NCBI GenBank assembly: GCA_963920705.1
Contig: OY987225.1
Span: forward strand, 12,914,829-12,978,828
Direction: 5' to 3'
Length of the DNA: 64,000 nucleotides
Origin: Odiellus spinosus
Lineage: Eukaryota; Arthropoda; Arachnida; Opiliones; Phalangiidae
In this document: piece by piece, positions 2,698-37,624 of the stretch
Numbering within the stretch: position 1 is the first letter of the stretch
Layout: every line of letters starts with the position of its first letter
Notes under the pieces: generated by a model
What the model was told of the DNA's origin: nothing
The model's database searches: none
What the model saw: only the letters and a program-made list of their open reading frames with translations
Made by a program: the position numbers and the translations under genes

Positions 2698-5600
2698 CAT
2701 GAACGAATTGCCTCGACTAAAGTCGAGGAGTTGTAATAAAACATTATCCATGGATTAGGTTTGTTCGTTTGCAACCTAGATTAATAATTAAAATATGGGA
2801 ATTTTTATTCCCTTTAAATTCCTTGTATAAGCATTCATAGGCTAACATGAACGAATTGCCTTGACTAAAATCGAGGAGTTGTAATAAAACATTATCCATG
2901 GATTAGGTTTGTTCGTTTGTAACCTAGATTAAAAATTAAAATATGGGGATTTTTTATTCCCTTTAAATTCCTTGTATAAGCATTCATAAGCTAACATGAA
3001 CGAATTGCCTCGACTAAAGTCGAGGAGTTGTAATAAAACATTATCCATTTATTAGGTTTGTTCGTTTGCAACCTAGATTAAAAATTAAAATATGGGGAAT
3101 TTTTATTCCCTTTAAATTCCTTGTTTAAGCATTCATAAGCTAACATGAACGAATTGCCTCGACTAAAGTCGAGGAGTTGTAATAAAACATTATCCATGGA
3201 TTAGGTTTGTTCGTTTGCAACCTAGATTAAAAATTAAAATATGGGAATTTTTTATTCCCTTTAAATTCCTTGTATAAGCATTCATAAGCTAACATGAACG
3301 ACTTGCCTCGACTAAAGTCGAGGAGTTGTAATAAAACATTATCCATGGAGTAGGTTTGTTCGTTTGCAACCTAGATTAAAAATTAAAATATGGGGATTTT
3401 TTATTCCCTTTAAATTCCTTGTATAAGCATTCATAAGCTAACATGAACGAATTGCCTCGACTAAAGTCGAGGAGTTGTAATAAAACATTATCCATGGATT
3501 AGGTTTGTTCGTTTGCAACCTAGATTAATAATTAAAATATGGGAATTTTTATTCCTTTTAAATTCCTTGTATAAGCATTCATAGGCTAACATGAACGAAT
3601 TGCCTCGACTAAAGTCGAGGAGTTGTAATAAAACAATATCCATGGATTAGGTTTGTTCGTTTGCAACCTAGATTAAAAATTAAAATATGGGGTTTTTTTA
3701 TTCCCTTTAAATTCCTTGTATAAGCATTCATAAGTTAACATGAACGAATTGCCTCGACTAAAGTCGAGGAGTTGTAATAAAACATTATCCATGGATTAGG
3801 TTTGTTCGTTTACAACCTAGATTAAAAATTAAAATATGGGGATTTTTTATTCCCTTTAAATTCCTTGTATAAGCATTCATAAGCTAACATGAACGAATTG
3901 CCTCGACTAAAGTCGAGGAGTTGTAATAAAACATTATCCATGGATTAGGTTTGTTCGTTTACAACCTAGATTAAAAATTAAAATATGGGGATTTTTTATT
4001 CCCTTTAAATTCCTTGTATAAGCATTCATAAGCTAACATGAACGAATTGCCTCGACTAAAGTCGAGGAGTTGTAATAAAACATTTTCCATGGATTAGGTT
4101 TGTTCGTTTGTAACCTAGATTAAAAATTAAAATATGGGGATTTTTTATTCCCTTTAAATTCCTTGTTTAAGCATTCATAAGCTAACATGAACGAATGAGG
4201 AGTTGTAATAAAACATTATCCATGGATTAGGTTTGTTCGTTTGCAACCTAGATTAAAAATTAAAATATGGGGATTTTTTATTCCCTTTAAATTCCTTGTA
4301 TAAGCATTCATAAGCTAACATGAACGAATTGCCTCGACTAAAGTCGAGGAGTTGTAATAAAACATTATCCATGGATTAGGTTTGTTCGTTTACAACATAG
4401 ATTAAAAATTAAAATATGGGGATTTTTTATTCCCTTTAAATTCCTTGTATAAGCATTCATAAGCTAACATGAACGAATTGCCTCGAATAAAGTCGAGGAG
4501 TTGTAATAAAACATTTTCCATGGATTAGGTTTGTTCGTTTGTAACCTAGATTAAAAATTAAAATATGGGGATTTTTTATTCCCTTTAAATTAGTTGTAAA
4601 AGCATTCATAAGCTAACATGAACGAATGAGGAGTTGTAATAAAACATTATCCTTGGATTAGGTTTGTTCGTTTGCAACCTAGATTAAAAATTAAAATATG
4701 GGGAATTTTTATTCCCTTTAAATTCCTTGTATAAGCATTCATAAGGTAACATGAACGAATTGCCTCGACTAAAGTCGAGGAGTTGTAATAAAACATTATC
4801 CATGGATTAGGTTTGTTCGTTTGCAACCTAGATTAATAATTAAAATATGGGAATTTTTATTCCCTTTAAATTCCTTGTATAAGCATTCATAGGCTAACAT
4901 GAACGAATTGCCTCGACTAAAGTCGAGGAGTTGTAATAAAACAATATCCATGGATTAGGTTTGTTCGTTTGCAACCTAGATTAAAAATTAAAATATGTGG
5001 TTTTTTTATTCCCTTTAAATTCCTTGTATAAGCATTCATAAGCTAACATGAACGAATTGCCTCGACTAAAGTCGAGGAGTTGTAATAAAACATTATCCAT
5101 GGATTATGTTTGTTCGTTTGCAACCTAGATTAAAAATTAAAATATGGGGAATTTTTATTCCCTTTAAATTCCTTGGATAAGCATTCATAAGGTAACATGA
5201 ACGAATTGCCTCGACTAAAGTCGAGGAGTTGTGATAAAACATTATCCATGGATTAGGTTTGTTCGTTTTCAACATAGATTAAAAATTAAAGTATGGGGAT
5301 TTTTTATTCCCTTTAAATTCCTTGTGTAAGGATTCATAAGCTAACATGAACGAATTGCCTCGACTAAAGTCGAGGAGTTGTAATAAAACATTATCCATGG
5401 ATTAGGTTTGTTCGTTTGCAACCTAGATTAATAATTAAAATATGGGAATTTTTATTCCCTTTAAATTCCTTGTATAAGCATTCATAGGCTAACATGAACA
5501 AATTGCCTCGACTAAAATCGAGGAGTTGTAATAAAACATTATCCATGGATTAGGTTTGTTCCTTTTTGTAACCTAGATTAAAAATTAAAATATGGGGATT

Positions 5601-24973: not shown

Positions 24974-24975
24974 CA
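24974..24975. other. Target-site duplication CA, left copy
   Basis: The uninterrupted satellite reads CTAACATGAACG. Here it reads CTAACA followed by the transposon, and on the far side CA plus TGAACG. The duplicated bases are therefore CA, a length known for CACTA-type elements (2-3 bp). Confidence 0.8.
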
Positions 24976-24989
24976 CACTCTAAAAAAAA
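24976..24989 (+). repeat. Left terminal inverted repeat
   Basis: CACTCTAAAAAAAA, exactly the reverse complement of 37609-37622. On this side the A-run continues for two more bases before GGGAGTT. Confidence 0.9.
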
Positions 24990-25470
24990 AAGGGAGTTCC
25001 AAAGGTGTATTAAGGGTGTAAATATATTTTTTTATTCCTTTAAGGGAATTAATTGGAAGTCCAAAGGGAGTAAAAATAATTCTATTCCTTTTTTACACCC
25101 TAAAATGGTGTAATAAAGGGAATGTTTTTTCCTATATTCCCTTTTAACTCTGTTTAGGGAATATAAAGGTTCTACGTGAAAAGGTGTAGAAAGGGAATAA
25201 AAATAATTTTATTCCTTTTTTACACCTCAAATGGAGTTAAAAACTGAATATGCTTAATTTATTCCTTTTACACTCCATTTAGGGATTAAATTTGTAACAT
25301 TAGAAGGTGTCTTATGGGAGTGCAATCTTTACATTCCTTTTCCACACCCCTAATGGTGTTAAAAAGAGAATATAACTTAGTAATATTCCTTTAGAACTCC
25401 ATTTATTGGTACCAAAATGGAAATATTACAAAATGGAGTAAATTATCTTCTATTTATTAAATTACGAGAA
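24990..25470. repeat. Left subterminal repeat region
   Basis: About 480 bp made largely of recurring words in both orientations: GGTGTA/TACACC, GGAGT/ACTCC and AGGGAATA/TATTCCCT. Examples are the GGGAGTTCC at the edge, TTTACACCC near 25105, and ACTCCATTTAGGG and CCACACCCC further in. Spacing is irregular, unlike the regular array at the other end. In CACTA elements such subterminal motifs bind the element-encoded proteins; that role is inferred here. Confidence 0.75.
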
Positions 25471-27021
25471 TATAAATTTTGATTTTCAGAGTATATTGTA
25501 TATCGTCGAATATTTTAGAAGAATTATACGAAGCGAATTATACGAATCGATAAAATATTTTAAACAACGTACCAAATTGCATAACATTTAAAAGGAGTAC
25601 TAGAATTCCAAATTAGCAAGCCAATTAGTCGAATAAAATTCCTTATACACGAGTATGTGATGGAAACTGAGTGAAAACCTTCCTAGAATTAAAGACGAAA
25701 TCTTCTAAGTTGGTTGAGGTGATGTCATCATTTTGTTTAGAACTACATCAATGAACACCATTTCCGCGCTTTGTTGAATGGGGGCTCTGTCATTTTCTCT
25801 CGCGAATACTATTAGTTGAATCTATAAACTCTATATACGTTCCACCCTTGGAAAAAGGCAACATCTGCCGTAGAAACGGGTTCTATTTAACGACTCTTTT
25901 TTTTAGTTTCAAGGTTGGCAAAAGTATATATAATCCTATATTTAAAACCAGCCTTGGAAAAGGAAATATTAGCAATACAAACGGGTGCTTTTTAACGGCT
26001 CTTTTATCCGTTTCTATGTTAGTGTATATGTTACTTTATAGAACCATATATTTCACTCCTATCCATCACTGCTTTACCATATTACCTCCCACAAACTGGT
26101 TTACCGTGATTCCGCCCGTCTTAGGTTTTGGCGCTGAATAAATTCTTTCATAGACGGGAGTTATCGCTCTGTTATATTCAGTGTTCAGTTAAATAAGACA
26201 CCCTCATGGTCGCTTTATTCTTGGAAACCAAGCATGGTGATTGAAGGGAGAATAACTTCGGAAGTGCTGAAAACTAAAACGGTCTAACTCAGAAATCGAA
26301 GGTCATTTTATAAAGTCCATCCTAGTTTAGGTTGTCTGCTTTTACAAGCCTTGACTGCAGCAGTGTCGCGCCAAATATTTGAGGTTTGTTTCAAAAAATC
26401 TGGAACGAAATCATCTATAGATTACCATTTTTCGGGAATGGTTAGAATATTTTTTATTGAAATTCTTCCTTGGAATGAGTTGCAGGTTTCAATATATTAA
26501 AACGGCTTTAGGCTCCTTTTAAAGTCTATTAAGAATCTCAGGATAATTATTGAAGAAACTAAAAGTGATTATTAACCTACTCTCCGATTTATCTTTTGGT
26601 TTTATCTCCTATATTTGGCGAAGATTTTTGAAGTTTATTTAATACGTTACAGAAATAGAGTAATATTTCAATAAACAATTTTAATGTAAGAGTATTATTT
26701 AAATTAGAGATCCTCGATATTCATAGATTAAATTTAGAGAAGATATTTTTGTTTTGGATTAATATAGAATGATAAACACCATAATGAAGAAAGATAGTTT
26801 GACATGATCTGAACAATTAATATTCAACAGTTAGTAAATAAATTCGAACAATTTGACTTTAGGGATCATACTTTTAATACATTATTGATTCTGAAGTGTA
26901 ATCCAGGAATATTAAATTTCACATGGAGTTGTTACAAAGTTTGATCAATTTTATGAATTTACATATGCAAATAATTGAAAAATGAAATGAGTAACCTTTT
27001 CTTGGGTGGTTTTTCCTCTTA
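25471..27021. other. Non-coding stretch between left subterminal region and transposase
   Basis: No convincing gene on either strand. It probably holds the 3' untranslated region of the transposase (minus strand); a possible ATTAAA signal on that strand lies near 26873. It also holds a diverged direct repeat (separate entry) and a short tandem GAATTATACGAA motif near 25520-25550. Confidence 0.6.
25845..26010 (+). repeat. Diverged direct repeat, two copies about 104 bp apart
   Basis: CCTTGGAAAA...AAACGGGT...TTTAACG.CTCTTTT occurs at about 25847-25902 and again at about 25952-26006. An open frame of 97 codons (25848-26141) spans both copies, but it shows no recognisable domain and the repeat explains its open length, so I do not call it a gene. 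Confidence 0.6.
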
Positions 27022-29469
27022 TTAGAAATAATTTAGATTTGTTAGACACCCATACGGCAATGAAACGTATGTTTTTTCTCCGATTTCGTATTTATCTACC
27101 ATATGGTAATTGGTAAATTTCCCGGCTTCAATAATTTTAAATTGACATTGCTCGCCAGATGAAATTTCATAACTATGTAATCGTTTTGAAAAAACTTCGC
27201 AGTGAGAGAGAGTTCCAACGATTATTAAACGGTTGTCTACAGAGAAAATATACTTAATTTCGAAAAGCGTTGGTTCTCGGGAAATACTTATTTTGTAAAC
27301 AAAAAGGTTTCCTATCGCAAACTGAATGCTATCATAAGTTGCGCTTCTTACGGAGTATAATTGTTTTGGAATATCAGGGCTGAGTTGATTTTGTATTGCC
27401 GCTGGTAACGTCAATTGATCAACTAATGACCCTAATGACGTTTTCTCAATACAAGGGGATCTTTCTGACAGCCAATTATAACACTGGTAAAACTGGTGTT
27501 TGCAGGATAGAGTTTTCGTAATGTTTCTGAAATTTTTGCAATTCTGAGCAATGGATTTGAAATAAGAATGTTTACTTTCAAACCTTATGCATGATATATG
27601 CCGTAAGGGACCAAACTTCCTAATACAATGCGCGTAATGAATCAAGTAGTGAAATTTAGGAGTAAAAAAATTGTTACCGCATACTTGCCCAACGTGTTTG
27701 AGAAAATTTTCAATAAGATTTTCTATAATAGGTAAACTATTTTCCGGTATGGAAGGGGCGAATAAATAATCGCAGATTTCTCTTAATTCGAGATACAAGT
27801 CCCAGTAATGATTATCGTCGTCAATAAAATCAATTAGAATAAGAGGTAACAGCCTATACAGACAAAACATTTCAGTGGCAGTGCCTTTCAATTGGCCATT
27901 ACCCAGAATTGCATTTCGAATTTGGATTTGAGGACGATTTGTTTCCGATTTTCCGTAAGGAAAATCGCAAAGTTTTCGATTAAAAACATCCAGACTTAAT
28001 CCACGCGTGGAAATTAAATCCGATAGCACTAGTTTAAGAATTTTGGTAATGACACCTTCTTGCAAATCATGCATTATGTCCACAGGGAGCTGTTTTGTTA
28101 AATCAAAATACTTTAGTTTTAATAACGGGCTCTCAGACCGCACCCCGTAAATTGACCCCTCTTTTTCGTCCAAAGCTAAGCATTCTAAGTGGTAAAGATG
28201 CCGATTCATTGTCCTAGGTTCAACCTGCAATTCGGAAAATGTTTCTGCTATCTCTGTTTTATCCGTCATACAAAATCGACAAATCCTACCGGAATTGAAA
28301 CACGTGTTTAATCCAGCGAGTTTATGCAATCCTAAATTGTCTCCAGAAAATATACTGACGAATCCAAGTACAAATTGATCTAGGCATTTTGCAAAGATGC
28401 CTTCTGTCGATAGTTTTTCCAAATCGAACAATAAGGGTCGAAATATATCGTGCCATCCAAATTCATCAGCGTCTTTTGATTTTGCGAGAAATATCAAATG
28501 GATGTCGCTCAGTTTGGTTCTATACTGATTTTTCCGGTTTAATATTGAAAAATAGCATCCAATAATTTTCTGTTTCCCTCTTTTTGACCCAATGGGATTA
28601 ACAACTTCAAATTCGTCGATGTACAACTGAAGTTGAATGGTTTGAGGATCAAAGTTATTGTTCTCAATTATTTGTTTCGATATTTCCCCCTGTTTAAAAT
28701 GAGCGATTACATTTTTGGGAATGTTTCTCGTGTTTATATGTCGTTGTGGTTCCTCACTTTTTTCGTAAATACCCTCTAAAACCTTTAAAATAGGTACGTA
28801 GTGAAAGTGGCTAAGTTTTTTTCTCTCCAAGCTTAGAGAAAATGTAAACTGTTGAGGTTGAACCATTTTCAGTTCTGTTGCACAATGTGAAGATATTTTA
28901 TGGCTCGTGTTAACGCTCATAAACACATTCCGAATCTCTTTGGTTTGTTGGATCAATGTTTTGTCCTCAAGTTCAATATTATTTTCTCGCAGAAAGCTTT
29001 TAATTTTGGAGCACTGGGCGTCCATCAAATTAGCACATAAGTCAAAGATATCGTTGATCAAATTTTCAATAACACTTTTTGGTACCAAATGTTTCTCTCT
29101 GTATTTCAAAATTAGTTTTACAATCTTGTCTCGCATCTCAAGGGGCTTCAAAAACATTTGCGCTTCGAGTTCTTCGTTGTTATCCAAATTTTCATCTACG
29201 TTCATATTTTCATCAATAATTTCATCCTGAATTGTTGAAACTTCTTCAAACTGGGTTCTTTCATCTTCAATCACCTTTTTGTGATTTCTATAAACGTGTT
29301 TTCTGTAGCTTTCTACATTTTTGAAACATTTCCCACAGTTGTTTAAGCCACATAAAACGGAAAAATTTGGTTCGTGAGAATGTATGTTTTTAACGTGTGC
29401 TATCAATAAAGTAAATTTTTTAGCAAGGAATACACATTTTGCGCATTTGTAAAATCTATCAGCACTCAT
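27022..29469 (-). CDS. CACTA/EnSpm-type transposase with N-terminal C2H2 fingers
   Basis: An intact single-exon frame of 815 residues, starting at ATG 29469 in an AAAAATGAG context. It would catalyse excision and insertion of this element in the nucleus. Two zinc fingers come first: C9-C12-H25-H30 and C40-C45-H58-H63. An acidic linker follows (about 66-103). The core carries the marks of the animal EnSpm/CMC family: LYIDEFEVVNPIGSKRG with D285, FSGDNLGLHKLAG with D377, paired cysteines CRFC (397-400), LPVDIMHDLQEGV (461-473), then HYLIHYAH and RFESKHSYFK with E631. D285, D377 and E631 are my candidates for the catalytic triad; only an alignment would fix them. The C-terminal 170 residues are less conserved. 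No frameshift or internal stop, so it may be active. It is divergent from the plus-strand gene, with 557 bp between start codons. Confidence 0.92.
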   Translation of the reverse strand: MSADRFYKCAKCVFLAKKFTLLIAHVKNIHSHEPNFSVLCGLNNCGKCFKNVESYRKHVYRNHKKVIEDERTQFEEVSTIQDEIIDENMNVDENLDNNEELEAQMFLKPLEMRDKIVKLILKYREKHLVPKSVIENLINDIFDLCANLMDAQCSKIKSFLRENNIELEDKTLIQQTKEIRNVFMSVNTSHKISSHCATELKMVQPQQFTFSLSLERKKLSHFHYVPILKVLEGIYEKSEEPQRHINTRNIPKNVIAHFKQGEISKQIIENNNFDPQTIQLQLYIDEFEVVNPIGSKRGKQKIIGCYFSILNRKNQYRTKLSDIHLIFLAKSKDADEFGWHDIFRPLLFDLEKLSTEGIFAKCLDQFVLGFVSIFSGDNLGLHKLAGLNTCFNSGRICRFCMTDKTEIAETFSELQVEPRTMNRHLYHLECLALDEKEGSIYGVRSESPLLKLKYFDLTKQLPVDIMHDLQEGVITKILKLVLSDLISTRGLSLDVFNRKLCDFPYGKSETNRPQIQIRNAILGNGQLKGTATEMFCLYRLLPLILIDFIDDDNHYWDLYLELREICDYLFAPSIPENSLPIIENLIENFLKHVGQVCGNNFFTPKFHYLIHYAHCIRKFGPLRHISCIRFESKHSYFKSIAQNCKNFRNITKTLSCKHQFYQCYNWLSERSPCIEKTSLGSLVDQLTLPAAIQNQLSPDIPKQLYSVRSATYDSIQFAIGNLFVYKISISREPTLFEIKYIFSVDNRLIIVGTLSHCEVFSKRLHSYEISSGEQCQFKIIEAGKFTNYHMVDKYEIGEKTYVSLPYGCLTNLNYF

Positions 29470-30026
29470 TTTTAAAATTTTCTAGTAAACTTGTGCTAAG
29501 AAAAACCGATTAAAATACATTATAAACAAGACGAGGTATTCTACGTCACATCGGATACCAAAGGTATTCAAACTATTTTCGTTTTCTTTTCTACACTAAA
29601 CAGTTTAACCCCCCCCCCCCGGGGTTTTCACGTAAATCCGCCCAACCCTCTCATATATAACTCCCCCTTCAAGAGTTATTTTTAGAAACTTTACGAAAAT
29701 CGTTTTGCCATCCACGACCTTGGCATTCTACTCAACGGCCCCTTCGTTGCCTTCATTCAATGACAGAGCACGAACAAACTTCTCGTGATGCGCTTCCCCC
29801 TCCCTCAGCTTGTAAAAATAAAGACGAATTCAAAAGTTACCCCTCTATAAGTTTCCCCCTTCTTTTGGCGATAAAAGGGCGCAGTATTTTTCTTGGACTT
29901 GACCCAAAGTGCACCGCACGGCGCACGCGAGTGACGCGACCACGCGTCTTGTTCAGTTCGAAACGGTTACGGGATTCGGGACTGGCCATTTATTTCAAAA
30001 GAAAGCCAAATCATAAAAATTTAAAA
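29470..30026. promoter_or_regulatory. Shared divergent promoter region
   Basis: The only sequence between the two start codons. It contains a 12-base C-tract (29609-29620), a TATA-like TATATAA (29654-29660, plus direction), a CpG-rich patch at about 29905-29950 that stands out in the AT-rich surroundings, and an insect-type initiator TCAGTT (29953-29958, plus direction). TTTATA on the minus strand near 29520 could serve the transposase. An open frame runs upstream of the plus-strand ATG from 29760, but 30027 has the better start context. Promoter function is inferred from position and motifs only. Confidence 0.5.
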
Positions 30027-32404
30027 ATGAGTGCGCAGACTATGTGTTTGATATGCTGTGGAGAAAGCAAACGTATCTATAAAATAATGAAGGAAAATCC
30101 AACTTTGAAAGATCTAAAGGATTCTTTGGCCACAGATCCCGCCTTTGAGGATATCAAGGAAGGGAATTTCATTTTCCAGGTATGTACTCAAATTCTTTAA
30201 CCATTTGTTTGGGAAATGGTAGTTCAAATTTTTTAAACACTTTACCCTCACTTCGGATGAGGCGTAATTAGCCGGTTTAATCAGATTTAACTGAAGTTTA
30301 CCCAGCCTTCTCAGTTTTATTAACCTCGGTGAAATCTGATTAAACCGGGCTAATTACGCCTCGTCTGAAGTAGAGGATAAGGAAGTAAAATTCGATCCAC
30401 ATTAGTGCACGAGATTTTTGGCGTTTATTAACTTGACTCTTAAAATCCTCCCGATGGATCCCGGCTAAGCCTTATTTGGAATAGGCTATTAAATACTAGC
30501 TTGTAAATTAATTAGAATTAACTAGAAATCAATTTTAAATTTACCCGAAAAGTAGGCTTAGCCGGGATTCATGTGTTTCATAGATTTTACATTGGGAGAG
30601 TGCCAACAAATTAGTAAACGCGAATCAGGGTATCTTCGCAAACAGGCGAGTGCTCTGCGCGCGCTTTTTTTTTCTAAATTAAAAGTCTATAATTGGGTAT
30701 AATTATAATTAGGAGCAGTGTTGCCAATGAATGGGATATATCCCACATTGTGGGTTTTTTGGTCTTAGTGGGATAAAGGGATTTGTCAACAAAATTGGCC
30801 GATTTTGTGGGATTTTTGACTATGGCGGGGTTTTAACGATCCTTTTTTTTACCAAAGAGGCAAAGATATTTTTCGAGCTTGACCAGAATTCACTAGCATT
30901 TTACAGTACAAAATATAAAATTCAGTAAAGCGCGAGGAAAAATAATAGTACAAGGTCGTTTGTTTAGTTATTTTCCCCTCCGTCAATGTTATACCACGTG
31001 TTCAGTGAAATTTCTGTATTTTTGGAAATTTTCACAGTGGGGGTGCCACTATACAATAAAGTTTCAATTCTATATGTAGCAAGCCCTCTTTATTATAGTC
31101 AACCATAGTTTGCAGCGTGTACAAACTTATGCTATACCTTATCTCTGTCAATTGTTTGTTTATTGGGATATTGAGCGCCTCGCTTCACGCGTGCTATCAT
31201 GTTTGAATGTCGTTTAAATGCAGCTGGTTGACTCTCTGTAGTTCACCTTAATTTGGCAGCACATATAATCCCACTCTTTCCGTTATCTCTATGAATTGTT
31301 TACTTAGAAATATAGGAAGCCTCATTTTTCGCGTGCTGACAATTTAATCTAGGGAGTTTAGTAAGAAAAAGGGTCCCACAAGATCATGCTGATACTAATA
31401 GTTGATATTATAAAAAACCTTGGAACCAGTCGTAAAAGGAATAAAATAGCGACTGTGGGTTTTTCGGTTCATAAACATTGGCAAAACTACCCCAAAGCGA
31501 GAATTTAGAGAGCGTAAAATATACTTGTTTCCGTTTTTATCAGTATGCGCGCTGAAGTCTAGCATTTTTTAACCCGTTTTGGAGAGTATCATAAGTTTAA
31601 GGAGTGTCATAGGCTTAACTTCGCTTGGGCTGCATAATCTAGGTTATTATCTACTTCACTAGGCTCTTGACTAATTTTTATTATATTCAATTTAGTCATA
31701 CGACGCTGATTTTGACCAAGACGTTGATCTAAATAACCTATCAAAAATAGAAAACAAAATGATAATTAAAGTCATTGGAACGAGGACTTGCACGGTGTGT
31801 TAATAATTTGTTTAAATACCAACAATTAATAAATAAAATTATTAATATCCATAATGTTTTCTAGATGTCATCAGAGGACAGTCCTCCTAAGAAAATAAAA
31901 TCCGATAGTGAAATTAATTTAATTGCCAATTCGGTAAGAGTTTAGTTGAATATTATTAATTTTGAAACTTATGGGATAGTTTTAATATTCGAAATGTGTG
32001 CACTGTTACAAATAATTTTAATATCATGCAGTCTATACGAACTTTTCATCCAATAATTATTCTTATCATGGATTCATTGAGCATTAATTATTCTCAATTT
32101 AAAGGGTATAATTTATTGTTCTATAAGAATTACAAACAGCCAATTCGAAGTGTTTTTCCTTCTTTTAGTAAATAGTGTTTCTTATAATAATTTTTTAAAA
32201 TTTTAATAGAATGTAGAAAAGAATGAAGAATTAAATCTAGTGGAAGGTCGAAGCATTTCTTTAACTACAAATCAAGATTCTTGGTAATTATAAGATTAGT
32301 CTTAGGTTGATTTCCAAATTCTCTATGTAAGAGTTTCTCTCTTGGAGTTCCTATTACATGGCCTGCTCCACCTCTCTCATCTGAAATCCTCATCTGATCA
32401 TTCC

Positions 32405-32436
<32 letters not shown>

Positions 32437-35400
32437 GATAATTTGGGAATTACCTTCTAAAAATTTTACTTTTGAAGTCATCGACGTTCGGGAGAAATTT
32501 AATATCTATAATTTCCTAATAGTGTAATGAATGGAGAAGTTCTAATCATTGACGAACAAACTAAGATTACACGATCAAAATTTACAGTAGAATACCAGCT
32601 TCCAGCCTTTCCAGTGACATTAATACAAAAAGACAAGTACAACTTGTATACTCCCTGCGAAAGAAAAAGAGCAAACAAGGAAATCTTGAACATTCTTTAC
32701 CACGATTTGGTTAATCGTTATTCATTGTACGTGGAAGATTACTTGATCACTATTCACTATATTAAGAACATATTAATAGAACTATACTTTTTTGCACTCT
32801 TAGATATCCACCATCTCACGCCCATGTTGCCGGAAAACTAACTAGTGAACTACCCTATATTGGAAATACGGTAATAAAGTCACAAGTAATAATACACCTA
32901 AGTTATTTCGTCTCATTGAATATTTTTTTCTATTTAGGAAACGTGGCGCCTTTTTTTGAGAAATAAATTCAAAAACAGCAGAAAGTATTTGAGAGATAAC
33001 AAGAATGTTCAAGTGGCTAGAAAATTATATGGTAGAACCAAGGAGCAAATCAAGGCAATGAAAGAAGCTAAGCAGAAGGAAATCGAAAAACTAGAAAAAA
33101 ATCTCAAAGGCAACGCCAAAGAATCGGACATACCAGCGGATGATAGTACGGAGTCCATTTTCGAGGAAATGTCCGCAAATATTGATGATCCAACTACAGA
33201 CCAGTAGCCGGATTCAGCTGGATGGTATTAGACGGTATTAGCTTAATACGCCACGCCCCTAGGAGGAGCGTATTAAGAAGAATGGCTGCATTTCCGGCGG
33301 CAACCCTTAGACAGGTATAGCTATGTATGTAGGGACGAGAATGAGCAAGTAGCAATCAGCGTGGGAAATAAGGCGTGCCAGAGGGCAAATGACTACTTTA
33401 AAAATTGCCTCGATCGCTTAAAAAATTAAATCGGAGGGGGTGACCACTTAGAAAATTAAAGGATTTTTTCCAAGCGTGTCGTGATTCAATAATATTTGGA
33501 AGTTTGTTTGGACTTTGGTAGTTTTGTTTCTACAAAATTAGTAGAAAAAATGTTATACCTGTAGGTCCGAGTCATTGAAAGCTAATTTATCAGGCTGTGT
33601 GAGTGTGAGTTTTGCCTGTGACTCCTCAGGGGGTCGGTGGTCATTTGTTCACTTTAAAAAAAAAACCTTATTTCCCACCCTGATAGTAACTGCATACTTT
33701 ATGGTTCAGTTCAGCTCACTACCTTCAGCTGTCTGCATGATGCTACCGCGGGAAATTTAAAGCAAACGTCACGTTGAAGGTGTGTTTGTCGTCTGTAAGT
33801 GCAGTGGACATTGTCTGATATATTTTGCCAAATGCCCCATAACTTATTATTTTTGAGAGGGAGTTTGTCCTATATGAAAAAGTTCTTATTAATAGAAGAA
33901 ATCTAGTAATGTCTGATAATTATTTTAAATGTCCGATTACTTTGAATAGGTGAAGGGGGTTAAGAAAACTTTTCTTATTTCCGTCTCTGGCCACGTGCTA
34001 GATTATTCGTGAATCGTGACGTCAACCGTATGACTGGACATAATCATTAAAAAACCATTTCCGTTCGAAATATTTATGGGGAAAATTAAGGTAATACGCT
34101 TGCGCAGTAGCCACCAATCCGGGACCGCCCATCTAACTTGAATTAACACTGTAGGAAATAACGTCACGCACTAATACCGTAGGGGGCGGATGGTATTAGC
34201 GAACTGCAGCAGCTGAATCCGGCCACAAAACGGTAGTACAACCTCTACGAACGGGCTTGAAGAACCCGAAGGTCCTTCAAGCAAAAAAGACATAATTCCA
34301 AAGAAACGTGTTCTTCGGCATGAGGTAAAAATATTCTTAGCTTCAAAATTTACATTTTTAAATATTTTAATGGAAGAGCTGGATCAATTCTTTTAAGTAT
34401 TGATGTAAATTATACATGTATGCATAGGTAAAAGAAAAAGAATCATTTGAGGATGAAAAAAGTGTGGAATCGCACATTAAACAAATGAAGGAAGAGCTTC
34501 GAAAAACAAAAATTGATCAGCGCATAATCAATTCAAAAATGTCCAGGACATTTCAAGACAGAGCTATGAAAATTCGAAGGGGAATATCAATATCGAAGAT
34601 TACCGAAGAATATCCAGCTTTATGTCATTTAAAACAGGTAAACAATATTATATTATTATATATATATATACTTGGTTTTATATATCTCGTTCAATTTGCT
34701 GAACTGCGAAATGACAGGCAGATGTTCCTTGCACTTAAGAAAGAGTTTTATTGCATTTCCAGAGTTGTAACCAACAGAGTAACATTTATCCACTAAACCC
34801 CTCCCCTTTTATGAAGCCAAGCAATATGTATGCATTTTGCTGTAACACCCATTTCTTTCAAAAAAAGTTTCTATTACAACAAGTAGAATATATAATTTGT
34901 AAAACTATAGTTTTTAACCTTGACCTTAAATCGTTTTTAGTTTCTATCAGAATTCCAACGGATAAAAGAAATTGACCCGGAAAAGAAATTATCTGAGTCA
35001 ATTCAGAAATACTCGGAAAAAATTTGGCAGAATTCTCCTTCGAAAGATTTCAAAAATAAAATGCTAAGCGAGATTAATGAAGAAATTGATTTAGTTGAAA
35101 GGAAACGTAAGTATTTTTTATTATTTAAATTAAAAAGGTTGGACAAAAGAAACTTATTTTTTGGCTTTAAATGGAGACTGCAACCAAACAATAATTTCTA
35201 TCGATTCCTCATCGTTTAGATAGGCCTAATTCATCAGTAAAAAAATACACTAGAAATATATTTTAAACTTATCCGGAAAATAGGCTTATCTGGATTCATG
35301 GAGATTGGCTTAACCTCTTCGCTTTAATCGACCAAAGTCTGTTTGATAAGGCAACATCTCCGTGACACTTCCAATAACATTCGACGCAAGAAATTCAGGA

Positions 35401-36235
35401 TTTCCTCGAGTCCATTAAAAACTATTTTCCGATTAAGCTTTAAATTGATTTCTAGTTTTGTAAATTATGAAACTAGTGGATTATGCCGATTTAAAATACA
35501 AGCAATCGATTAAAAAAAATCGCTTGTTGTAACTGTATTCTCCCTGTAAGGACTAGAATATCTCTAAAGCAAAAGGTTATTCTGATAAAGTCAATTTTGT
35601 TTACTTGTCTTGATGCTTACCAAAAAAATAATATTAAAGAACACATGACTTTTATTTTTATAATTTATTTATTATAAAAACTGCATAACCTGTTGTAAAG
35701 CATAGTTTTTATGAATACCACCCGGAACCAATGAGACTTGTTAAATACAAGTACTATTGCCTGCATAACAAAAAATTATAACGCCTATTGCTTGATGATC
35801 TTGTTGTTTTCAACATAGGAGATAACTGCATATTTTGTTTAATTATATACAAATAATATTTCTTTATATGTAGATCAAAAACAAAGTGCCGCACTTTTAC
35901 TTATTCCAAGTATTGTAAAAGAAAAATACTACAACATGTTTTTAAAGGATTCTAACCTGTCATCAGAACTAGATGTCCACCCGGTTTTGGTATACAAAGG
36001 ACATCAAATATTAAGTAGTGATTGTTTTATTTTATATGTAGACAAAATTGAAATTTTGCAATCGAATGAAATTTCAAGCGCAATTTTAGCATGGGTTTGC
36101 TCATTTTGGGTGTTTGATTTAGAATACTTGGACAGTTTGTCAAAAACTTTACTCGTGTACGAGTATTTAATTTTAAATATTAGCAAACCCAAATCAAAAG
36201 GCCCTGTTTTCACGCTTCTAGAAAAATTTCAATAA
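30027..36235 (+). CDS. Multi-exon SAMD3-like accessory protein of the transposon (about 585 aa, reconstructed)
   Basis: Exons read by eye: 30027-30179, 31696-31794, 31865-31933, 32210-32283, 32523-32726, 32804-32870, 32938-33203, 34237-34324, 34428-34637, 34941-35106 and 35874-36235. All joins are GT-AG and keep phase. Exons 1-2 form a ubiquitin/PB1-like domain: TLKDLKDSLA, then FQSYDADFDQDVDL and NKMIIKVIG. Exon 3 carries a basic PPKKIK, a possible nuclear signal. Exons 5-7 give LPAFP, ILNILYHDLVNRYSLYPP, HVAGKLTSELP and TWRLFLRNKFKNSRKYL. Exons 9-10 give SRTFQDRAMKIRRGI, EEYPALCHLKQ and FLSEFQRIKEID. Exon 11 has ALLLIPSIVKEKYY and ends with KSKGPVFTLL. I recognise this order from multicopy 'SAMD3-like' proteins of animals. 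Its place in this element suggests a TnpA-like binding or accessory role (inference). The exon 7/8 join is weakest: a 1-kb insertion lies there, and without splicing translation stops at TAG 33205. Confidence 0.8.
30238..30381. mobile_element. Foldback/MITE-like hairpin in intron 1
   Basis: Two arms of about 48 bases (30239-30288 and 30331-30380) are near-perfect inverted copies, with cores GAGGCGTAATTAGCC and GGTTTAATCAGATTT separated by one extra C in one arm. A loop of about 40 bases lies between. Size and structure fit a MITE. I could not find a clear target duplication, and the family is unknown. Confidence 0.7.
30455..30573. mobile_element. Small MITE-like element in intron 1
   Basis: About 119 bp, with inverted ends GATCCCGGCTAAGCCT and AGGCTTAGCCGGGATTC; the interior is AT-rich. 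The inner part ACTAGAAATCAATTTTAAA and the right end recur in degenerate form near 35249-35301, and in inverted form near 35425-35460, which supports a dispersed repeat family. Confidence 0.65.
30716..31489. mobile_element. Possible hAT-like MITE in intron 1
   Basis: The left end CAGTGTTGCCAATG and the right end CATTGGCAAAACTA are inverted copies with two mismatches. The flanking 8-mers do not match, so no target duplication supports it. Inside are several GTGGGTTTTT repeats and no gene. A weak call. Confidence 0.35.
32406..32435 (+). repeat. 30-base poly-T tract in intron 4
   Basis: An uninterrupted T-run of 30 bases between exons 4 and 5 of the plus-strand gene. It could be a microsatellite or the tail of an antisense retroposed fragment; nothing next to it identifies one. 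Confidence 0.85.
33207..34223. mobile_element. 1.0-kb inverted-repeat element inserted in coding sequence
   Basis: Termini GCCGGATTCAGCTG (33207-33220) and CAGCTGAATCCGGC (34210-34223) are perfect 14-bp inverted repeats. Each end also has an internal hairpin: CTTAATACGC...GCGTATTAAG on the left and CTAATACC...GGTATTAG on the right. No gene is visible inside. It interrupts the plus-strand gene between the acidic tail DDPTTDQ and TTSTNGLEEPEG; the first base of the element completes a TAG stop codon (33205-33207). A GT at 33204 and an AG at 34235-34236 lie just outside it in compatible phase, so it may be removed as an intron. The target duplication is not clear, and the family is not identified. 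Confidence 0.75.
33357..33682. mobile_element. hAT-like MITE nested in the 1.0-kb element
   Basis: 326 bp with 17-bp terminal inverted repeats, CAGCGTGGGAAATAAGG on the left and CCTTATTTCCCACCCTG on the right (one mismatch). The flanking 8-mers GTAGCAAT and ATAGTAAC agree at five of eight positions and all three differences are transitions, fitting an old 8-bp hAT-type duplication. CAG-type termini also fit hAT. No coding capacity. Confidence 0.6.
35249..35460. repeat. Degenerate inverted pair related to the 30455 MITE, in the last intron
   Basis: 35249-35301 (ACTAGAAATATATTTTAAA to GGATTCATG) resembles the right half of the 30455-30573 element with scattered mismatches. 35425-35460 carries the reverse complement of the same inner part (TTTAAATTGATTTCTAGTT). 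About 110 bp of unrelated sequence lies between. It is probably an older, rearranged copy. Confidence 0.5.
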
Positions 36236-36236
36236 A
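36231..36236 (+). promoter_or_regulatory. Candidate polyadenylation signal AATAAA
   Basis: AATAAA overlaps the TAA stop of the plus-strand gene, and the following 100 bases are AT-rich before the subterminal array starts. This would give a very short 3' untranslated region. Position and motif only. Confidence 0.5.
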
Positions 36237-36365
36237 ATGAATATTCTATAATTATATAACGCTAAATAATTTCACATATTTCATTTATTGGTATTATTAT
36301 TAATTCAAAAGGGTTTAATTTTGAATAATAATATTCCCAACAAACTGAGCAACATTCACTACCCA

Positions 36366-37432
36366 TGGGACAATAATTTGACACCACTAGGGGAATAATA
36401 CGATTCCTCTAGGGGAATAATACGATTCCTCGAGGGGAATAATACGAATCCTCGAGGGGAATAATACGATTCCTCGAGGGGAATAATACGATTCCTCGAG
36501 GGGAATAAAACGATTCCTCGAGGGGAATAATACGATTCCTCGAGGGGAATAATACGATTCCTCGAGGGGAATAAGTCGATTCCTGCAGGGGAATAAATCG
36601 ACTGCATATGGGGAAGAAATCGACTGCATATGGGGAATAATTCGACTCCTTCAGGGGAATAATTCGACTCCTTCAGGGGAATAATTCGACTCCTTCAGGG
36701 GAATAGTTCGACTCCTTCAGGGGAATAGTTCGACTCCTTCAGGGGAATAATTCGACTCCTCCAGGGGAATAATTCGACTCCTCCAGGGGAATAATTCGAC
36801 TCCTTCAGGGGAATAATTCGACTCCTTCAGGGGAATAATTCGACTCCTTCAGGGGAATAATTCGACTCCTTCAGGGGAATAATTCGACTCCTTCAGGGGA
36901 ATAATTCGACTCCTTCAGGGGAATAATTCGACTCCTTCAGGGGAATAATTCGACTCCTTCAGGGGAATAATTCGACTCCTTCAGGGGAATAATTCGACTC
37001 CTTCAGGGGAATAATTCGACTCCATCAGGGGAATAATTCGACTCCTTCAGGGGAATAATTCGACTCCTTCAGGGGAATAATTCGACTCCTTCAGGGGAAT
37101 AATTCGACTCCTTCAGGGGAATAATTCGACTCCTTCAGGGGAATAATTCGACCCCTTCAGGGGAATAACGCGACTCCTTCAGGGGAATAATTCGACCCCT
37201 TCAGGGGAATAGCGCGACTCCATACGGGGAATAACGCGACTCCATACGGGGAATAACGCGACTCCATACGGGGAATAACGCGACTCCATTCGGGGAATAA
37301 TTCGACTCCATACGGGGAATAATTCGACTCTATATGGGGAATAACACGAATAATATGATACCAAAAGGGGAATAATACGACTCCACGAAGGGAATAATAT
37401 GACACCATGAGGGGAATAATACGACTCCTTTA
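36366..37432. repeat. 22-bp tandem array (about 48 units), right subterminal region
   Basis: The core unit is GGGGAATAATTCGACTCC plus four variable bases, 22 bp in all. Sub-blocks differ in the variable part: ATACGATTCCTCGA (about 36387-36580), ATTCGACTCCTTCA (about 36640-37190) and ACGCGACTCCATAC (about 37200-37310). Each unit holds one GGGGAATA and usually one ACTCC (GGAGT on the other strand), the same words that are scattered in the left subterminal region. Probable binding sites for the element's proteins (inference). Short minus-strand open frames here are products of the repeat. Confidence 0.93.
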
Positions 37433-37608
37433 GGAGAAAAGTTTCATTCCTTTACTGATATAGTTTGACTCCTTTACGGGAATAAAGGAACTTTTTGGAG
37501 AAAATGCTTTTTGAGAAATTTACACCCTTTGGGGAATATTTCTAGTACGAATTGGGAGTGAAATCTGTGACAACCGAAAACTCCTTTGAAGGAATTGTTT
37601 TACACCAC
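37433..37608. repeat. Right subterminal region outside the 22-bp array
   Basis: Irregular copies of the same words up to the terminus: GACTCC, GGGAATA, TTACACCC, GGGGAATA, GGGAGT, ACTCC and TTACACC. This part most resembles the left subterminal region in style. Confidence 0.7.
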
Positions 37609-37622
37609 TTTTTTTTAGAGTG
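37609..37622 (-). repeat. Right terminal inverted repeat
   Basis: TTTTTTTTAGAGTG, the exact reverse complement of 24976-24989. It is followed directly by the CA target duplication and the rest of the satellite monomer. Confidence 0.9.
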
Positions 37623-37624
37623 CA
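37623..37624. other. Target-site duplication CA, right copy
   Basis: CA precedes TGAACGAATTGCC and restores the satellite monomer broken at 24975. Confidence 0.8.

Follow-up and report, generated by a model that had tools for sequence, protein, structure and literature searches.

A spliced homologue of SAMD3 as the second gene of EnSpm/CACTA-type elements in the harvestman Odiellus spinosus

Results

A complete EnSpm/CACTA-type element in satellite DNA

The stretch of DNA analyzed here, referred to as the window, comprises 64 kb of the 443-Mb genome of the harvestman Odiellus spinosus (C1:12914829-12978828). Nearly the entire window is satellite DNA in units of ~149 bp, and a single stretch breaks the array: a complete EnSpm/CACTA-type transposable element of 12,647 bp (24976-37622) with the ends CACTCT...AGAGTG. 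Within it lie a transposase gene and, on the opposite strand, a separate spliced gene with its own ATG, predicted from sequence and here called gene 2, the protein of which is a homologue of SAMD3 in the region beyond the sterile alpha motif (SAM) domain. The features of the element other than the exons of gene 2 are listed below.

24974..24975, no strand: left copy of the target-site duplication CA (sequence and empty-site match)
24976..37622, no strand: complete EnSpm/CACTA-type element, 12,647 bp; the satellite stops and restarts at these bases, and the empty site is found
24976..24989, plus strand: terminal inverted repeat of 14 bp at the left end, CACTCTAAAAAAAA (matched to the reverse-complemented right end)
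27022..29469, minus strand: transposase gene, one exon, 815 amino acids, with C2H2 fingers, a DDE core, and a C-terminal BAH-like domain
29470..30026, no strand: spacer of 557 bp between the divergent starts, a putative common promoter region judged by position
36389..37425, no strand: subterminal tandem array of a 22-bp unit, 43.5 plus 3.5 copies, found at other loci as well (see below)
37609..37622, minus strand: right terminal inverted repeat, 14 bp (compared with the left end)
37623..37624, no strand: right copy of the target-site duplication CA (sequence and empty-site match)

On the left, satellite sequence ending in ...gctaaCA was followed by the element start CACTCTAAAAAAAA, and on the right the element end ...TTTTTTTTAGAGTG was followed by satellite sequence beginning CAtgaacg. 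Fusing the two flanks with a single CA gave a 44-base string, the empty site, which occurred 115 times in the window, and the target-site duplication of the element was 2 bp, CA. Satellite edges, empty site, 14-bp inverted ends, and 2-bp duplication therefore define 24976-37622 as one insertion. In a near-identical copy of the element on C107, the likeness to the window element ended ≤3 bases from this right end.

A second whole element of 8,209 bp, also with both genes inside, was found at C216:355060-363268. Its ends, CACTGTTAGAAATAAGGG, were perfectly inverted, its duplication was TA, and it sat in a 23-bp satellite, one copy of which matched the joined site. Both elements thus had CACTA-like CA...TG termini with inverted repeats (14 bp in the window element; CACTG in the C216 family) and duplications within the 2 to 3 bp of EnSpm/CACTA elements. 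The region G000 (C1:12653306-13254505), which includes the window, held six near-identical full-length transposases at spacings of about 136, 152, 136, 152, and 22 kb; this series probably reflects large duplications of the satellite array that carried the element along, not separate insertions.

The transposase has a RAG1/Transib-type fold with the DDE triad D285, D377, and E631. In 59 sequences, both aspartates and the C(2)C motif C397-x2-C400 were invariant, and E631 and the H(3-4)H motif H607-x3-H611 were present in ≥90%. A C(2)C and an H(3-4)H motif between the second D and the E define EnSpm/CACTA transposases (PMC12730594). Against Pfam, the window transposase matched DUF4218 below the cutoff (E = 0.018) and gave no match to PF02992 (Transposase_21); among 17 transposases (the window's and 16 relatives, E up to 0.01), 3 matched PF02992, 5 matched DUF4218, and 7 matched Plavaka. 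Scans of viral contigs with the transposase, the transposase alignment A1, and the alignment A3, and of genome contigs with A1, yielded no confirmed relative.

Exon structure of gene 2 and state of its copies

The exons of gene 2 chain in phase from the ATG at 30027 to a stop codon ending at 36235 and encode 589 amino acids as joined.

30027..30179, plus strand: exon 1 (ATG); in-phase chain; exon 55 to 59% identical in L011 and L012, loci of families with transposases 65% identical to the window's
31696..31794, plus strand: exon 2; in-phase chain; found in L011 too, diverged (block N) in L014 and L016, weak in L015 and L018
31865..31933, plus strand: exon 3; supported only by splice sites and reading phase, with near-identical sequence in L009 and L010
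32210..32283, plus strand: exon 4; support as for exon 3, with near-identical sequence in L009 and L010
32523..32726, plus strand: exon 5, SAMD3 block A; in-phase chain, SAMD3 profile, other families
32804..32870, plus strand: exon 6; in-phase chain, other families; 5' junction at SAMD3 residue 190
32938..33203, plus strand: first part of the interrupted exon 7, with SAMD3 block B; in-phase chain, uninterrupted copies, other families; 5' junction at SAMD3 218/219
33204..34225, no strand: insertion of ~1 kb inside exon 7, inverted ends around GCCGGATTCAGCTG, edges good to ~2 bases; not present in the copies on C4 and C107
34226..34324, plus strand: exon 7, second part; in-phase chain; uninterrupted copies
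34428..34637, plus strand: exon 8, SAMD3 block C; in-phase chain, SAMD3 profile, other families
34941..35106, plus strand: exon 9, SAMD3 block D; in-phase chain, other families; 5' junction at SAMD3 341
35874..36235, plus strand: exon 10, SAMD3 block E, stop; in-phase chain, SAMD3 profile, other families

For exons 3 and 4, the support is that of splice signals and phase, because they were visible solely in the near-identical copies. The initial annotation had described eleven in-phase exons, and the chain holds at those coordinates; the count does not. All joins were GT/AG except 33204/34226, which is the edge of the ~1-kb insertion (~14-bp inverted ends) and not an intron. Gene 2 therefore has ten exons, and the supposed exons 7 and 8 are a single exon split by an insertion that is missing at the same point in the copies on C4 (L009) and C107 (L010). 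The window copy of gene 2 is therefore probably dead. The C4 copy was also incomplete: its exon 1 matched from residue 18, the exon for residues 345 to 414 matched only to residue 401, the 10 kb read did not contain a detected final exon, and exon 7 showed a stop in a crude check of the frame. In the C107 copy, the transposase lay in two parts 4.7 kb apart. Intron 1 of the window copy contained two short inverted-repeat structures (30231-30390 and 30454-30572), which are probably small nonautonomous elements.

Homology of gene 2 to SAMD3

Human SAMD3 and the gene 2 protein aligned by BLASTP with 26% identity over 238 residues (E = 1e-17 in a one-sequence database). A SAMD3 profile built without the window protein, from the best 120 of 304 database relatives of two baits, nearly all named mammalian SAMD3, scored the gene 2 protein at 65.9 bits, compared to 5.2 bits for the top of 585 decoys (84 transposases, 500 shuffles, and 1 reversed sequence), and hhalign gave a probability of 97.8 (E = 1e-12). 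Three colinear blocks, at residues ~152-262, 345-470, and 471-575 of gene 2, correspond to ~143-258, 273-398, and 399-501 of SAMD3, and the block order proposed at first inspection holds. The proposed SAMD3-like membership stands on the profile score, with the restriction that no SAM domain was listed for the gene 2 protein in Pfam at E up to 10; because this domain is missing, gene 2 is regarded as a homologue of the post-SAM part and not as SAMD3 itself. No Pfam family came near the cutoff for gene 2, for its N terminus, or for two L013 pieces. The N terminus had seemed PB1-like by eye, which Pfam did not confirm. A sequence search of the PDB with alignment A3 matched the SAM part of SAMD3 only.

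Exon junctions of SAMD3, as read from exon-skipping isoforms among the 120 proteins rather than from gene records, fell at human residues 128, 190, 218, 274, and 341. Gene 2 junctions 5/6, 6/7, and 8/9 coincide with those at 190, 218, and 341, the 218-type junction lying two residues ahead of a conserved W in both proteins, and another gene 2 junction lies near 274 with an offset of 2 to 3 residues. At the selected places that were inspected elsewhere in the genome, SAMD3-like junctions that agreed in phase and in splice signals recurred in L013 (190 type), in L013, L014, L018, and L019 (218 type), and in L013, L014, and L018 (341 type). These common junctions therefore point to a spliced common ancestor of gene 2 and SAMD3, and origin of gene 2 as a retrocopy was rejected as ill fitting.

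Gene 2 in other transposase families of the genome

A search of the host genome for the transposase produced 57 matches, several of which were fragments of one locus. From these, 20 loci were chosen and 10 kb was read upstream of each transposase; other matches, some above 44% identity, were left out. Gene 2 was found in 11 of the 20 loci and was divergent to the transposase in all 11. By identity of the transposase to that of the window, these loci were L009 and L010 (99%), L011 and L012 (65%), and L013, L028, L014, L016, L015, L018, and L019 (44 to 46%); L011 showed exons 1 and 2 only and L012 showed exon 1 only. Grouped into families (our own grouping), gene 2 was present in 6/6 examined families at ≥44% identity and in none of about 4 at ≤34%. 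The placement of gene 2 within the termini (14-bp inverted ends, CA duplication, 115 empty sites), its divergence from the transposase, and its co-occurrence with EnSpm transposases, all anticipated in the initial annotation, are borne out, the last within this genome by six families.

Distant loci were detected by tblastn with the window gene 2 protein alone (best E values of 1e-4 to 1e-17; 5e-7 for L019); the much lower E values of the block searches reflect profiles that had absorbed hits, and shuffled open reading frames (ORFs) in those searches never scored better than E = 0.07. A SAMD3 hidden Markov model (HMM) without the window protein, run on ORFs at E up to 0.5, matched in 9 of the 20 loci (L009, L010, L013, L014, L015, L016, L018, L019, and L028; L009 and L019 weakly, E of 0.02 to 0.03) and in 0 of the other 11. 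For block-joined family proteins, the SAMD3 HMM gave scores of 82.6, 71.4, 67.5, and 16.5 bits, compared to 70.4 bits for the window; SAMD3 was among the sequences in the profiles used to choose the blocks.

In a 74-row transposase tree, made by a quick method without bootstrap and leaving out the C5:1.96M family and other families at ≤34%, the five gene 2 families that were placed (window/C4, C33, C216, C8, and C17) formed one clade (Shimodaira-Hasegawa-like approximate likelihood ratio test, 100), and C13, without gene 2, fell outside it. C216 and C8 were the closest pair in both the transposase tree and the gene 2 BLAST scores.

Two observations were made at loci where gene 2 was undetected. 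In a family with 27%-identical transposases (L024 to L027), the similarity of L024, L025, and L026 ended together after AAGAG, ~6 kb upstream of the transposase, with TG next in L025 and L026 and not in L024; L027 equaled L024 across the 10 kb. Upstream of the 34%-identical transposase of L020, positions 3208-3873 held a RING-finger ORF (PF13920), probably a host gene.

Constraint on gene 2 and subterminal arrays

Coding sequence of gene 2 evolves more slowly than its introns. Between the window and C107 copies, 3/1,695 coding and 22/3,352 intron sites differed (P = 0.02), between C17 and C84 copies 3/908 coding and 13/1,562 intron sites differed, and the pooled odds ratio for three pairs, including the C8 pair considered below, was 0.38 (P = 0.02); columns near gaps were excluded from all counts. 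Changes between copies were too few for a ratio of nonsynonymous to synonymous rates.

Arrays of a 22-bp unit lay downstream of gene 2, between it and the terminus, in the window, C107 (L010), L013/L028, L014/L016, and L018. In L018, 9 copies of the unit stood next to an 85-bp array, and L015, of the same family, had the 85-bp array only. A period of 22 bp is about two helical turns, and plant En/Spm elements have repeats near their ends.

Discussion

These results suggest, with a probability of about 0.6, an EnSpm/CACTA cut-and-paste lineage with two divergent genes, one for a RAG1-fold DDE transposase and the other for a spliced homologue of the post-SAM part of SAMD3 with a TnpA-like accessory role. 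It is very likely that gene 2 is a stable functional component of the element: several distantly related elements of this genome possess it as well, so that it looks like a working part and not a passenger, and it appears to have belonged to the element throughout the divergence of these families. Given such a component, the chances that it acts in TnpA-like end binding or regulation are about even. The gene 2 protein would bind element DNA near the ends, with the 22-bp subterminal arrays as candidate sites, would bring the ends together or lift silencing, and would help the transposase. We infer this to be the most economical role for gene 2, and a RAG2-like regulator to be its main rival.

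Several observations weigh against this interpretation. Gene 2 is not universal, being undetected in all eight of the loci L020 to L027 (transposases of 27 to 34% identity), and it was undetected in L017, an L016-family copy that departs from L016 after ~2.5 kb. No DNA-binding domain was recognized in gene 2 by Pfam, and the window protein as a lone query found no homologue in the protein database at E up to 10, a failure for which we suspect that lysine/glutamate-rich stretches occupied the word filter. The gene 2 tree left four families unresolved. For constraint, the C8/C8 pair ran in the opposite direction (3/906 coding versus 1/496 intron sites), and window-C107 was the only pair significant alone. 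Within the 10 kb read, no 22-bp array was present in L009, L011, L012, L015, or L019, and kinship of the units between families was rejected, their similarity being no greater than that of shuffles.

Under a RAG2-like role, gene 2 would be a regulator or a chromatin factor that does not bind DNA in a sequence-specific way; it would bind either the transposase or host chromatin and control the time and place of cutting. RAG1/RAG2 and ProtoRAG resemble the present elements in pairing a RAG1-fold transposase with a second gene inside the element. They differ in that the second genes have no known kinship and in that the pair is divergent here; the ProtoRAG pair is convergent. Similarity between gene 2 and RAG2 has no support here, a fold-level search not having been made (the predicted SAMD3 structure was poor, with a predicted local distance difference test score of 39, and was not used), and the subterminal arrays suggest some DNA-binding partner; such a regulator is accordingly considered unlikely, if a serious candidate. 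Accidental proximity of dense SAMD3-like genes to transposases, which could be imagined because such genes are multicopy in many animals, is refuted for the window and C216 elements, where gene 2 lies within exact termini, and is scarcely credible overall, given the divergent orientation in 11/11 loci and given that, among 20 loci of equal size searched identically, 9 showed no gene 2.

An EnSpm element might instead have picked up a genomic SAMD3-like gene with its introns and carried it without a role in transposition. Capture of genomic DNA would explain introns at SAMD3 positions, and the tested gene 2 families are one EnSpm clade, with the sole gene 2-less transposase tested lying outside. 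A passenger should, however, have decayed, whereas coding change is below intron change; gene 2 occurs in six families, with transposases diverged to ~45% and splice sites at homologous places; and the pairing of C216 with C8 for both genes is as coinheritance predicts. Passenger capture is thus judged improbable, and a variant may be that a host gene was captured and then recruited. That gene 2 appears confined to a single clade in this genome tends to favor capture, or loss elsewhere, while the broad distribution of multicopy SAMD3-like genes tends to favor an old family of transposons. Tentatively, and with the odds somewhat against it, the SAMD3 core could be a transposon protein in origin, an accessory gene of animal EnSpm elements with unchanged intron positions that acquired a SAM domain and became vertebrate SAMD3 by domestication. 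Its kin would still reside in elements; RAG1 likewise came from a related transposase.

The two-gene EnSpm/CACTA organization favored here has partial counterparts. The Schistosoma element SmTRC1 resembles the present elements in its DDE transposase, which belongs to this superfamily, in its 2-bp duplications, and in an extra protein beside the transposase; its extra proteins come from alternatively spliced transcripts, in contrast to the separate divergent SAMD3-family gene described here, and its authors detected no resemblance between these proteins and sequences from other elements of animals or fungi (PMC1636069). Plant En/Spm, with TnpA and TnpD, is likewise a two-protein CACTA element with a proposed accessory role (PMC1636069). 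TnpA comes from the transcription unit of TnpD, whereas gene 2 has a divergent unit and lacks the TnpA-type trait of alternative splicing of the transposase transcript, and the likeness is one of proposed role. With SAMD3, gene 2 shares the three colinear post-SAM blocks and three splice junctions at identical positions; it differs as a transposon protein without a SAM domain, with a different N terminus and 24 to 26% identity. Judged by titles and abstract openings, the papers found on SAMD3 with transposons or CACTA, or on EnSpm with the sterile alpha motif, contained no link between them.

Knowledge of animal EnSpm/CACTA elements comes largely from their transposase, and SAMD3 is a vertebrate gene of little-known function. 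The second protein of an animal EnSpm element now has an identity, in the SAMD3 family, and SAMD3 is thereby placed in a family and in a likely molecular context, with an origin that can be tested. We predict that multicopy “SAMD3-like” gene models of animals are at least partly transposon genes, which should be masked or reannotated.

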